DNA of 64,000 nt from Gammaproteobacteria bacterium (GTDB taxonomy: Bacteria; Pseudomonadota; Gammaproteobacteria; Steroidobacterales; Woeseiaceae). The stretch covers positions 62,001 to 126,000 of the forward strand of contig JAOTZC010000002.1 in the NCBI GenBank assembly GCA_029861535.1, in the 5' to 3' direction. Below, in pieces: positions 2,686 to 31,676 of the stretch (its first letter is position 1; the number at the start of each line of letters is the position of its first letter). A program made the position numbers and the translations under genes. The notes under the pieces are model-generated. The model had not been told where the DNA came from and searched no databases. It saw only the letters and a program-made list of their open reading frames with translations.

Positions 2686-4437
2686 ATGAAGTCCCTTGTC
2701 GCCAATCTCGTGTCTGACGCGCTAGCGTCGCTGCCGGAGCTCTCCGCTGCAGCGAAGAGCCTATCGACGATAAGCACAGTCGAACGCACCCGTGACGCCG
2801 CGCACGGTGATTTCGCGACAAACATTGCGATGCGTCTTGCGAAACCGACGAAAAAAAACCCGCGTGAGATCGCGAACAATATTATTGATGTGCTGCCGGA
2901 CAGCGACATCATCGAAAAGGTCGAGATCGCCGGTCCCGGTTTTATCAACTTCTACCTGAGTCCAGCCGCGTTTCATGCCGAAGTCGTAGCTATTCTCGAG
3001 CAGGGCGAGGAGTACGGCCGACAGCCGACGAGAGACGGCCCGAAAATTTTGCTCGAATTCGTTTCGGCTAATCCGACCGGTCCACTGCATGTCGGTCATG
3101 GTCGCCACGCTGCCTATGGCGCGACGATCGGCAATCTGCTTGAAGCGATGGGCTACCCGGTCAGCCGTGAATACTACGTCAACGACGGTGGTCGGCAGAT
3201 GGACATCCTCGGCGCAAGCGTCTGGATACGTCTATTGCAGAACCAAGGCATCGATGTTGCGTTCCCGCAGGGTGGCTATCGCGGCGATTACATACGCGAC
3301 ATTGCCGAGAACATCGATACCGATGGAATTGCGCCAGTCTCGGCCGACGACGTCAACGACGGCTTGCCGAACGATGCGCCCGCGGGTGATAGGGAAGAGT
3401 ACATCGAAGCGATTATCGAGAAAGCAAAGAGTCTGCTCGGCAACGAAGGATTCGACCGCATTCGCCAGCAGGCACTCGAGTCGATTCTTGTCGATATCGA
3501 AGACGATCTTACCGAATTTGGCGTAAGTTTCGACAGCCGTTATTCGGAGCAGAGCCTGGAGAAATCAGGTCGTATCGATGCCGCAATCGACGTGCTCAAA
3601 GAGCGAGACATATTGTACGAGAAGGATGGGGCATTGTGGTTCCCAGCGACACAGTTCGGCGACGAAAAAGATCGCGTCGTCGTCCGTAAGAACGGGGCTA
3701 AGACTTATTTTGCGTCAGACATTGCCTATCACTTTGACAAGCGCGAGCGCGGCTTCGACCATCTTCTGGACATTCTCGGTGCTGATCATCACGGCTACGT
3801 GACACGCGTTCGCGCCGGCCTAAAAGCAATGGGCTACGAGGGCGACGATCTCGAAGTTGAGCTTATGCAGTTCGTTACGCTGTATCGAGGCGGTCAGAAA
3901 ATGCAAATGTCGACGCGCAGCGGCGAGTTCGACACCTTGCGGCAGCTGCGAGCCGAAGTCGGCAACGATGCAGCGCGCTTTTTCTATGTTTCACGATCGA
4001 ACGATCAGCACCTCGACTTCGATCTCGATGTCGCGAAATCACAATCAAACGACAATCCAGTCTATTACATTCAATACGCGCACGCGCGTATTGCCAGCGT
4101 ATTCCGCCAGTTGCGGGAAAAAGAGCTGCGCTACGACGGAACGAACGGACAGAAGAACCTGGATGCGCTGACAGAATCGCAGGAGAAATCCTTGCTAACG
4201 TCGCTCAGTCGTTATCCGGAGGTAATCGAGCTGGCGGCGAACAATCGCGCACCGCAACATCTCGTGCACTACCTGCGAGATCTCGCCAATGATTTCCATA
4301 GCTGGTACAACGCGCACGTCTTCATTGTCGACGATGCACGAATTCGTGATGCGCGCCTGACGCTTTGCGCCGCGACCCGGATTGTCATCGCAAACGGGCT
4401 TGCAATTCTTGGCGTATCAGCACCGGAGTCCATGTAA
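2686..4437 (+). CDS. argS: Arginyl-tRNA synthetase
   Basis: Class I aminoacyl-tRNA synthetase that charges tRNA-Arg with arginine in the cytoplasm. It has 583 residues, the usual size. An N-terminal Add-1 domain (about 1-95) for tRNA D-loop recognition is followed by the HIGH signature as HVGH near residue 135. The KMSK-like loop KMQMS lies at about 405-409, a normal degenerate form in ArgRS. The C-terminal helical anticodon-binding DALR domain holds YAHARIASVFRQL and ends near NGLAILGVSAPESM. The stop codon overlaps the next start by one base (TAATG), so argS and the SPOR protein are probably translated in a coupled way. Confidence 0.97.
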   Translation: MKSLVANLVSDALASLPELSAAAKSLSTISTVERTRDAAHGDFATNIAMRLAKPTKKNPREIANNIIDVLPDSDIIEKVEIAGPGFINFYLSPAAFHAEVVAILEQGEEYGRQPTRDGPKILLEFVSANPTGPLHVGHGRHAAYGATIGNLLEAMGYPVSREYYVNDGGRQMDILGASVWIRLLQNQGIDVAFPQGGYRGDYIRDIAENIDTDGIAPVSADDVNDGLPNDAPAGDREEYIEAIIEKAKSLLGNEGFDRIRQQALESILVDIEDDLTEFGVSFDSRYSEQSLEKSGRIDAAIDVLKERDILYEKDGALWFPATQFGDEKDRVVVRKNGAKTYFASDIAYHFDKRERGFDHLLDILGADHHGYVTRVRAGLKAMGYEGDDLEVELMQFVTLYRGGQKMQMSTRSGEFDTLRQLRAEVGNDAARFFYVSRSNDQHLDFDLDVAKSQSNDNPVYYIQYAHARIASVFRQLREKELRYDGTNGQKNLDALTESQEKSLLTSLSRYPEVIELAANNRAPQHLVHYLRDLANDFHSWYNAHVFIVDDARIRDARLTLCAATRIVIANGLAILGVSAPESM

Positions 4438-28786: not shown

Positions 28787-29239
28787 TTAAACTGAACCTC
28801 CGCACGAACCTTCACCGCACTTGCCTTCGGCTTCTTTGTCGCCGCCACAAGAGGCTTCGCCTTCTTTGTCGCCGCCGCAAGAAGCTTCACCTTCCTTATC
28901 GCCGCCACAAGAGGCTTCGCCTTCCTTGTCACCGCCGCAGGAAGCTTCGCCTTCCTTATCGCCACCACAAGCGGCTTCGCCTTCCTTGTCATGCGATTCG
29001 CCGCCTTCCTTATCGCCGCCGCACGATCCTTCACCACAAGTGCCTTCCGTTTCCTTACCTTCCTTGTCACCGCCACAAGAGCCTTCACCGGCTCCAAGCA
29101 TATAGCCAGCACTCAGCGCAGACATCGTGAACGGGCTCTCGAGTGTATCAGCGCTTGCAACACTGGAAATCGCGAACGAGCTCGCGAGAGCCGCTCCAAT
29201 CGCCAATGCAACTGGCTTTACAACTTTTCTATTGGACAT
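28787..29239 (-). CDS. Exported cysteine-repeat peptide, HvfA/bufferin-like RiPP metallophore precursor candidate
   Basis: The 150-residue product has a signal peptide (VVKPVALAIGAALASSFA, cleavage likely after SVASA) and a short segment SPFTMSALSAGYML that closely resembles the leader of HvfA-type proteins. A low-complexity tail of Gly, Glu, Asp, Lys and Cys follows. The tail holds ten cysteines: five in EGxCG motifs (EGSCG, EGTCG, EGSCG, EGKCG, EGSCG) and five in EA(A/S)CGGDKEG repeats. In the HvfA/bufferin families such cysteines are converted to thiooxazole or oxazolone/thioamide groups by DUF692 enzymes and bind copper. No DUF692 or DUF2063 partner is present here. The start at 29239 has TAGGAGA upstream. 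The gene follows the anti-sigma gene by 64 bp. Confidence 0.75.
   Translation of the reverse strand: MSNRKVVKPVALAIGAALASSFAISSVASADTLESPFTMSALSAGYMLGAGEGSCGGDKEGKETEGTCGEGSCGGDKEGGESHDKEGEAACGGDKEGEASCGGDKEGEASCGGDKEGEASCGGDKEGEASCGGDKEAEGKCGEGSCGGSV
28831..28980. repeat. Five tandem 30-bp coding repeats
   Basis: Five consecutive 30-bp units begin at 28831, 28861, 28891, 28921 and 28951, each encoding one decapeptide of the (A/S)CGGDKEGE(A/G) type on the minus strand. Differences between units are mostly at third codon positions, and partial units flank the array. The pattern fits expansion by slippage under protein-level selection. Confidence 0.9.
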
Positions 29240-29303
29240 CGTTTTATCTCCTACCGGGTTACGCCCTAGCGTGGGCATTCATTAATCAGTGCGCGGCCTA
29301 AAA

Positions 29304-30032
29304 TCAGGTGCTCCACGTCACTGAGTTCTTCACGTTATTTTCAATTCGCTTTAGATTTTCACCGTCCTCGCCGATGATCGCGATGCTGCTATCGCCGACA
29401 GGAAGAATGACGCCGTTAATCGACTGCCCGGAAAATGACTGACGACTGTCGACTTTTTCTCCGGGCATAAGAAGGATCGTCACCGGGCCGCGCTCACCTT
29501 GAATAACCAGGTGCGGCACTTCCTTGCCGTTAATAACACAGCTTTGCGCATAGGTAATTAGTCCGATGCTGTGGTCCATCGTCGCAAGATCCGCCGGAAT
29601 CACGCGCGCCAAACGAGAGTCGCTGACGCTCTTGTCGGTTACTCGCAGTGCATAGGGTTCGTGCTCGAGGTGCGCGACAATTTCGTCGGCCAGCGACGGA
29701 TAGCTCAAGTCATTGCCAAGCATCCTGAAACCAAGCACAGCAGCAATGGCGACAGTTGCGGCAACGGCCAGCCATGCCGGCGTCGTCAGTCTGCGCGTTC
29801 GCAAGACTGAGACGATGCTCGAATCGACGTCCGCCAGTTCCGGCATTTTGAGTTCGGGCACAGAGATCGCCAGCGCGCGGGCTATTTTACTGTCTAGCGC
29901 CTGCATGTCCGTCTGAAACGCCTGACAAGCCGGGCACTGCGAGGCATGCGAATCTCCACCTTCGTACAACGGGTTCGCAGCAACGGCTTCTCTGTATTCT
30001 TCACAAGTCATCATGTCGTTCGTTTCCGTCAA
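29304..30032 (-). CDS. DUF3379 anti-sigma factor-like membrane protein
   Basis: A 242-residue protein of the DUF3379 type. The cytoplasmic N-terminus has MTCEEYREAVAANP and an HxxxCxxC element (HASQCPAC) like zinc-finger anti-sigma domains. One membrane helix at about 85-105 (PAWLAVAATVAIAAVLGF) follows, then a periplasmic domain of about 135 residues. It overlaps the end of the ECF sigma gene by 4 bp, the normal layout of a sigma/anti-sigma pair. It most probably holds the sigma factor inactive until an envelope signal arrives. The signal is unknown; the link to the downstream cysteine-repeat peptide suggests metal or oxidative stress. Confidence 0.82.
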   Translation of the reverse strand: MTETNDMMTCEEYREAVAANPLYEGGDSHASQCPACQAFQTDMQALDSKIARALAISVPELKMPELADVDSSIVSVLRTRRLTTPAWLAVAATVAIAAVLGFRMLGNDLSYPSLADEIVAHLEHEPYALRVTDKSVSDSRLARVIPADLATMDHSIGLITYAQSCVINGKEVPHLVIQGERGPVTILLMPGEKVDSRQSFSGQSINGVILPVGDSSIAIIGEDGENLKRIENNVKNSVTWST

Positions 30033-30547
30033 TACAAGGCATCCTCGCTTTGCACTGACTCCTTTAGCTTGAGCCTGGCGCGGTGCAGGCGCGTCAATAT
30101 TGCACCTTGCTTGAGCCCCATCAGCTCTGCGATCTCGTTCGTGCTGTAGCCCATCAGGACCTGCAGTACGAGCGGTTCGCGATAATCGTCGTCGAGCCTG
30201 TAAATCGCCTCACGCAAATCGTCGAGCTGCTCATCCGGCGCCTCCGCCAGCAACGCCTCCTGAGACGGTGTCAGGTTGTCGACATCGACCGTTTCCAGAC
30301 GCCGCCGCTCGAAATATCGTGCGTTTTCGCGTCTGACGATGGTCAGCAGCCATTGCTTCGCGGCAGCCTCATCGCGCAGCGCGTCGAGCGATTTCCATGC
30401 TCTCAGCAGTGCCTCCTGGACGACGTCCTCGGCAATCGCCTTGTCCCGGCTCAGCCACGCCGCGAAGCGATACATATCCTGGTGATAAACGCTCACGATG
30501 CTGTCAAACCTGCGCCGTCGATCCAGTTCGGCATTACTGCTATTCAT
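30029..30547 (-). CDS. ECF-type RNA polymerase sigma factor
   Basis: The 172-residue form starts at 30547. Region 2 is seen in RFDSIVSVYHQDMYRFAAWL and AIAEDVVQEALLRAWKSLDAL, region 4 in LDDDYREPLVLQVLMGYSTNEIAELMGLKQGAILTRLHRARLKL. Another ATG at 30610 would add 21 residues and has a purine-rich GGTAGGG ahead, so the start is uncertain. It is co-translated with the DUF3379 anti-sigma gene. The likely target is its own operon including the cysteine-repeat peptide gene, but no classical AAC/CGTC promoter pair was found upstream. It is divergent from hemB. Confidence 0.88.
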   Translation of the reverse strand: MNSSNAELDRRRRFDSIVSVYHQDMYRFAAWLSRDKAIAEDVVQEALLRAWKSLDALRDEAAAKQWLLTIVRRENARYFERRRLETVDVDNLTPSQEALLAEAPDEQLDDLREAIYRLDDDYREPLVLQVLMGYSTNEIAELMGLKQGAILTRLHRARLKLKESVQSEDALY

Positions 30548-30662
30548 TCGAGATGACCCGCCCGACCTGATTTTTATTACTTCCGCTGAAGAAAACGGTA
30601 CTAAAGGCATGGAAACCCTACCTAAATACAGGGAAAATCGAAAATTATCCTGCTTTTTCTGA

Positions 30663-31676
<1,014 letters not shown>

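Follow-up and report, generated by a model that had tools for sequence, protein, structure and literature searches.

The window analysed here, 64,000 nucleotides of a Woeseiaceae draft genome (JAOTZC010000002.1, positions 62,001 to 126,000; the genome is labelled G000), carries on its minus strand an operon for an extracytoplasmic function (ECF) sigma factor, a DUF3379 anti-sigma factor and an HvfA-like precursor of a ribosomally synthesized and post-translationally modified peptide (RiPP). In our view it is likely that this locus is the regulator and precursor half of a split HvfA/captophorin system, that is, a system for a copper-binding thiooxazole peptide, and that the ECF sigma factor ties it to modifying enzymes encoded elsewhere in the genome.

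The operon and its cysteine-repeat peptide

The first gene (30029 to 30547, ATG start) encodes the sigma factor of 172 amino acids. The protein matches the Pfam models Sigma70_r2 (48.3 bits) and Sigma70_r4_2 (45.7 bits), both over cut-off, and the NCBIfam model PRK12517 (204.1 bits against a cut-off of 197). An in-frame ATG at 30610 was rejected as start codon because it lies 5′ of the conserved motif described below. The anti-sigma factor gene follows (29304 to 30014; DUF3379 of Pfam, 121.8 bits against 33.2). Here a first-pass annotation of the sequence had placed a TTG start at 30032 and hence a 4-bp overlap with the sigma gene. The relatives do not support this start, as their conserved beginning MNCxEYR fits an ATG at 30011 or 30014 better, so that the two genes are separated by about 14–17 bp instead. 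The gap of 64 bp between the anti-sigma stop codon and the ATG of the peptide gene, given in the same annotation, stands. The peptide gene (28787 to 29239) encodes 150 amino acids with the leader SPFTMSALSAGYML and ten cysteine repeats. Finally a hairpin which resembles an intrinsic terminator, with 11 pairs and then a T-run, closes the operon (28751 to 28724, minus strand). As 3.7 such sites are expected in shuffles of the region, the hairpin is supported by its place and strength and not by its count. Three co-directional genes which end in one terminator, as first annotated, are thus confirmed.

The gene order is well conserved. It runs from sigma to anti-sigma to peptide in all 30 DUF3379 loci which we read (29 relatives and the window). 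In a second set of 66 loci, which shares some members with the first, the sigma gene is present in 65 (the miss, L164, lies at a contig end), and a filter recovered the peptide in 65 as well; that of the last locus, L199, was found by eye. Of these 66 loci, 29 are titled Woeseiaceae or Woeseia and the others come nearly all from Gammaproteobacteria or Proteobacteria metagenome assemblies.

That the peptide is HvfA-like and has ten cysteines was already proposed in the first-pass annotation, which also mentioned bufferins. The profile searches agree with the first part only. The NCBIfam HvfA repeat model NF050137 is matched in two stretches with 25.1 bits (cut-off 19.5) and is the only NCBIfam model found at E ≤ 1; the Buf1 and Buf2 bufferin models DUF2282 and BufA2 are not matched, and a Pfam search gave no match. 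All ten cysteines stand in EG/EA-x-CG units, namely EASCG (four), EGSCG (three), EGTCG, EAACG and EGKCG (one each). Five single-cysteine units similar to EA[A/S]CGGDKEG follow each other in a row, spaced 10 residues apart. The N-terminus resembles a Sec signal as judged by eye. Of 65 peptides counted in the relatives, 64 retain the leader motif; over the whole set of 65 the residue before the core cysteine is Ser in 427 and Lys in 62 of 541 cases. The enzyme FonBC is reported to tolerate Ala, Thr or Arg before the cysteine as well as most changes at position 2, the available part of the report making no mention of Ser (PMC13097082). Modification of the EASCG and EGSCG units thus appears plausible.

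Modifying enzymes at a separate locus

The absence of the usual enzymes, noted in the first-pass annotation, holds for the window and not for the genome. In this draft of 2.57 Mb (71 contigs, 76% complete) genes for an MNIO (DUF692), a DUF2063 and a DoxX protein follow one another at the end of C69, a different contig than that of the peptide. The three proteins pass the NCBIfam cut-offs for HvfB (410.8 bits against 360, on an N-terminally cut protein), HvfC (297.2 against 142) and HvfX (146.7 against 80). The HvfB protein scores 246.3 bits with the BufB model and so stays under its cut-off of 310. The closest solved structures are 3BWW for HvfB (1.7e-69) and 3DEE for HvfC (2.1e-12), with MbnB much weaker. 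HvfB further carries the motifs GLGLRR and ERDF. Their Arg-Arg and Asp-Phe pairs, matched by motif and not by alignment, fit Arg15/Arg16 and Asp249/Phe250 reported for FonB, an enzyme of the EGKCG type (PMC13097082). Other MNIOs in the relatives (L035, L043, L044, L259) differ at these positions. Of the possibilities first raised for the peptide, modification in trans therefore gains support from the presence of all three genes in the genome and from a motif shared with the relatives' enzyme operon (see below). Nothing in the analysis pointed to a different chemistry.

To see how widely precursor and enzymes are separated we used 60 genomes, namely the own genome and 59 relatives, 36 of them of the same genus. 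The HvfA model is matched in 48 of the 60 (E ≤ 0.1; 45 over cut-off), MNIO in 50 and DUF3379 in 43. Within the genus 33 of the 36 relatives have DUF3379, and in each of them the DUF3379 contig also carries an HvfA match (E ≤ 0.1); in all 31 which hold both halves the MNIO gene lies on a different contig from DUF3379 and HvfA. In two more cases within the genus the HvfA model is matched at a place away from DUF3379, one near a contig end (G003:C276) and one below cut-off (G020:C50). We also read 30 MNIO loci (that of the own genome, L001, which contributes only about 60 bp upstream of the MNIO gene, and L035–L063). Within the stretch examined none has a sigma or anti-sigma gene, and the filter found a repeat precursor directly upstream of the MNIO gene in a single locus, L036, from outside the genus. 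A laxer scan of about 1.46 kb upstream of hvfB (0.54 kb in L054) in 13 same-genus loci gave by eye no small cysteine-rich open reading frame resembling a precursor; apart from a gene similar to endonuclease III, the frames seen there look like chance.

Could the split be an effect of the assembly, with the enzymes truly beside the peptide? The assembly of the own genome consists of 71 contigs, and hvfB stands at the end of one of them. The peptide locus, however, is located inside a contig of 228,667 bp, and for Woeseia sp. OFTM247 (G243) the idea is refuted, since both halves are found in one contig of 3.6 Mb with the sigma promoter at 2,908,187 and hvfB at 814,288, thus 2.1 Mb apart. We regard an assembly effect as next to impossible. 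Judged by the gene positions in these genomes, the split of precursor and enzymes is real, old and lineage-wide. We note on the side that the contig stops at the start of hvfB in two separate genomes (L001 on G000:C69 and L265 on G020:C95), perhaps by chance.

Another explanation would be that the peptide acts unmodified as a secreted sponge for thiols or metal and that HvfB and HvfC act on something else. The prevalence of Ser in place of Lys before the core cysteines and the single-cysteine units, which hold half of the cysteines of the window peptide, would be in line with such a role. But the nearly invariant HvfA leader motif, the lack of another precursor beside hvfB in the 13 scanned loci, the FonB-like substrate residues of HvfB and the presence of the motif of the sigma operon before hvfB of the relatives all speak for a modified peptide, and we consider an unmodified one unlikely.

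Outside the order the association is rarer. In a class sample of 185 genomes, 32 have a DUF3379 match (the own genome included), and of 28 loci read outside the genus only two have an HvfA-like peptide nearby. In L216 the HvfA-like open reading frame comes after the anti-sigma gene. In L210 (G196:C6) an HvfA-like frame with EGSCG repeats (plus strand, 2755–3229 of the locus) lies divergent to and upstream of the sigma gene of a sigma/DUF3379 pair, and the link between peptide and DUF3379 may thus extend beyond the order. The genes downstream in the other loci are mixed.

A promoter-like motif before both halves in the relatives

The pattern GTAATAW-N15-GGTC was first noticed by eye 5′ of sigma genes and MNIO operons. 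In the window its only strict match is GTAATAA-N15-GGTC at 30555 to 30580 (minus strand), which ends 7 bp before the ATG of the sigma gene; if it is the promoter, the mRNA would be leaderless or nearly so. In the set of 66 loci, 62 of the 63 with upstream sequence have the motif 7–8 bp 5′ of the sigma start (L164, L171 and L189 are cut upstream and were left out). Among the matches listed, it also precedes hvfB in all 31 same-genus relatives in which this gene is present and the sequence before it can be read (the MNIO gene is present in 32 of the 36; G020 was excluded because of a contig end), and in G243 as well. The spacer length is nearly fixed. At the 66 loci 62 matches are found with a spacer of 15, and none to two with any one of the other lengths between 11 and 19; base composition predicts 0.26. 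For 35 MNIO loci the figures are 24 with 15, none or one with the others, and an expectation of 0.06. Over the own genome and its 36 same-genus relatives the pattern occurs 143 times and its reversed form 28 times. These exact-match reversed controls cover the 60 genomes, and G243 is not among them.

Outside the genus the motif becomes less regular. Among the matches listed, it precedes the MNIO gene in five of eight genomes with DUF3379 and in one of nine without (p = 0.05), where G051 is counted with one mismatch and the nine include genomes with MNIOs of other types. In G054, the one positive genome among those without DUF3379, the motif stands also before the HvfA gene itself (L107). Near the sigma start of the 28 loci outside the order a strict match was found three times (L204, L206, L213).

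From this association we infer that the motif is the promoter of this ECF sigma factor. By analogy with the relatives hvfB of the own genome would be preceded by it too, and both halves are probably induced in concert. Alternatively the motif could be an operator for some other regulator. The sigma factor is linked to it by association only, and the relative G011 keeps two sites, before DoxX and before MsrP, in a genome without a DUF3379, HvfA or MNIO match. A spacer fixed at 15 and a distance fixed at 7–8 bp to the sigma start, in contrast, are what one would expect of a two-part, autoregulated ECF promoter, and the motif tends to occur together with DUF3379. Moreover the promoters listed for Sinorhizobium meliloti RpoE7 contain GTAAC, which we assign to their –35 element (PMC6180224). 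An operator thus seems rather improbable to us, though it deserves mention, and we retain the promoter as our reading. The DoxX site of G011 is an observation of its own: in this relative of 1.5 Mb the motif and a stretch resembling the start of hvfB are followed by DoxX (L103, G011:C44), a remnant which suggests that DoxX has its own use.

Between the sigma gene and hemB, which is encoded on the plus strand, the stretch 30560–30668 contains in addition a block of about 32 nucleotides (minus strand, gattttccctgtatttaggtagggtttccacg) which is strongly conserved genus-wide and includes CCCT-N10-AGGG. A regulator of hemB, or of both genes, may bind at this block.

Other genes with the motif give an impression of what else the sigma factor may control in the relatives. 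We picked by hand 40 further sites among the matches listed (neither sigma nor MNIO), favouring GTAATAA and recurring sites; as judged by eye 27 lie before a likely start codon and 13 do not. In seven genomes (L097, L108, L120, L123, L127, L131, L132) the gene encodes a peroxiredoxin-like protein, one of them cut by a contig end, and the three proteins scanned are all AhpC-TSA. Further sites precede genes for MsrP (L095, L104), DsbD (partial, in L122), a DsbC-like protein which does not reach the DsbC cut-off (L110), a TlpA-like thioredoxin (L130) and, among others, DM13 (L106, L133) and DUF3179 proteins (L111, L113). In G243 nine of ten exact matches precede genes, and these encode a peroxiredoxin-like protein, BufA2 (128.5 bits against a cut-off of 60), a thioredoxin-like protein, HvfB, DUF1223, a thiamine-pyrophosphate enzyme, YHS, the sigma factor and DUF547. 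Judged by their names, most of these proteins would serve thiol, methionine and copper chemistry in the envelope; the thiamine-pyrophosphate enzyme, DUF3179 and DUF547 speak less clearly. In the own genome we recognised no other member of the regulon, and the motif is absent before the gene of its nearest peroxiredoxin (32% identity). The role in metal or thiol stress which was suggested at first is thus supported, as far as the predicted regulon of the relatives can tell.

Some sites are mentioned for completeness. Besides the thiamine-pyrophosphate enzyme of G243, the motif stands before another gene of this kind in three genomes (L099–L101, one scanned). In L098, L102, L118 and L128 it precedes an open reading frame for a short hydrophobic-looking peptide, a secreted-looking protein of about 126 amino acids, or both; the one protein scanned, from L098, has no Pfam match. 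In G243 the BufA2 gene with the motif lies near a second, different MNIO gene (L231/L271, G243:C1:211000-214200), and two kinds of MNIO peptides may here share one sigma factor.

Proposed regulation and comparison with known systems

We suggest that the system could operate in these steps. The DUF3379 anti-sigma factor, spanning the inner membrane, would hold the ECF sigma factor until copper or an oxidant or thiol stress acts in the periplasm. The freed sigma factor would then read its own GTAATAA-N15-GGTC promoter, so that sigma factor, anti-sigma factor and HvfA-like precursor are made together in cis. At the same time it would read the distant promoter of hvfB-hvfC-hvfX and provide the enzymes in trans. 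In the cytosol HvfB and HvfC could convert cysteines of the EG/EA-x-CG repeats, and the modified peptide would leave by the Sec pathway and buffer periplasmic copper. Repair proteins, in the relatives MsrP and peroxiredoxin-like and Dsb/TlpA-like proteins, would be induced alongside.

Several observations weigh against this scheme. As to the motif, it was spotted on part of the data in which it was later counted and the sets of loci overlap, so that these figures do not amount to an independent test. Allowing one mismatch removes nearly all of the excess over the reversed control (47 matches against 37 reversed in G000, 118 against 93 in G243). The sigma gene of L191 and the Hvf-type MNIO genes of G046 and G049, both genomes with DUF3379, lack it. 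In the own genome it is promoter-like only before the sigma gene, its three other exact matches among those listed lying inside or against open reading frames. In addition, C69 ends within the first codons of hvfB and the upstream region is absent from the own genome, where a precursor gene could still lie beyond the contig end. As to the chemistry, EGKCG accounts for just one of the ten cysteines of the window peptide and five stand in single-cysteine EA[A/S]CG units. FonBC is reported to have acted on a two-repeat peptide but to have left a single-repeat peptide unmodified (PMC13097082), and the ten cysteines may therefore not all be converted. Finally, copper as the inducer is not certain, because the related mmr peptides of Microbulbifer were, according to the available part of the report, undetected after the addition of copper (PMC12538549).

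The anti-sigma factor could itself be the sensor. The motif HxxxCxxC, as in zinc anti-sigma factors, is kept by 37 of 40 aligned rows, the window protein among them; of the three rows which lack it, one is truncated. A structural model from 40 sequences (mean predicted local distance difference test score, pLDDT, 83; predicted template modelling score, pTM, 0.55) has a helical N-terminal part, a helix at 81–100 with low pLDDT, interpreted by us as the membrane helix, and at the C-terminus an alpha/beta domain, presumably periplasmic. Modelled alone this domain reaches a pLDDT of 84.5 and a pTM of 0.81. The C-terminal domain of RseB/MucB is the best structural match to both models (six top rows, Z 8.5–9.0), for instance 2p4b_A with Z 8.9, a root mean square deviation of 3.3 and 95 aligned residues. 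The next row, Thermotoga TM1622 (1vr8), is close with Z 8.4–8.5, the RseB rows are weak in Foldseek (E 0.06 or worse), and the sequence profile of the anti-sigma factor found nothing meaningful among solved structures. The RseB/MucB-like fold is therefore only a lead. Three residues of the protein, H116, C160 and H169, do not vary at all, and H119 and E120 hardly do. One might imagine that DUF3379 is a fused RseA-/RseB-like sensor whose His/Cys set senses copper or thiol oxidation and on which the HvfA-like peptide, metal-loaded or unloaded, feeds back. This is a speculative extension of our scheme, and we consider it unlikely.

The nearest parallel is found in Haemophilus influenzae, where RpoE2 controls msrAB and is required for the induction by hypochlorous acid (HOCl) of a four-gene DoxX/DUF2063/COG3220 cluster (PMC7907618), which in our own reading is its hvf operon. 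The predicted regulon of the relatives parallels that of RpoE2, that is, msrAB and the DoxX/DUF2063/COG3220 cluster under HOCl. The HvfABCX system of H. influenzae, with its oxazolin, and the captophorins fontiphorin and gonophorin are like the system described here in the HvfA-like leader, the cysteine repeats and the presence of HvfB, HvfC and HvfX in the genome, and in H. influenzae an ECF sigma factor stands behind the cluster too. The differences are that here the precursor is part of the sigma operon while the enzymes have a separate locus, and that the repeats are mostly EGSCG/EASCG and not EGKCG. The anti-sigma factors differ as well; HrsE of H. influenzae is described as a cytoplasmic protein of 67 amino acids (PMC7907618), whereas here about 235 amino acids comprise DUF3379 and a further alpha/beta domain. 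In the RseA/RseB and MucA/MucB systems the RseB/MucB protein is separate; here the domain whose model resembles it is fused to the anti-sigma factor itself, with no sequence similarity found.

The Buf1 bufferin clusters likewise link an ECF sigma/anti-sigma pair to MNIO-modified secreted copper peptides, but the precursor family is a different one and the anti-sigma factor is NrsF in place of DUF3379. According to the available part of PMC12452194, regulator genes occur within Buf1 and not Buf2 clusters, genes with the MsrP-type domain oxidored_molybd occur in a few oxazolin clusters, and sizeable proportions of Buf1 and Buf2 precursors lie away from MNIO genes; stand-alone precursors as such are thus already known. 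An operon with DUF692 is also driven by RpoE7 of S. meliloti (PMC6180224). New here is the promoter-like motif GTAATAW-N15-GGTC before the sigma gene and hvfB of the relatives. Within the collection of papers searched there was none on DUF3379, PF11859 or PRK12517, and with whole words none which joins MNIO, sigma factor, regulon and copper and none on Woeseia together with anti-sigma.

The products of MNIOs are commonly sought among the genes beside the enzyme. In all 31 same-genus genomes which hold both, such a search would leave enzyme and substrate unpaired. The shared motif pairs the precursor with its putative enzymes, names MsrP, peroxiredoxin-like and Dsb/TlpA-like proteins and BufA2 as candidates for the regulon, and points to copper and oxidant stress of the envelope as the role of these peptides. 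The DUF3379 anti-sigma family gains a candidate target promoter and a candidate sensor domain. If the idea of a fused sensor with feedback by the peptide were true, the regulon would act as a copper buffer that meters itself, and not as a simple stress switch.

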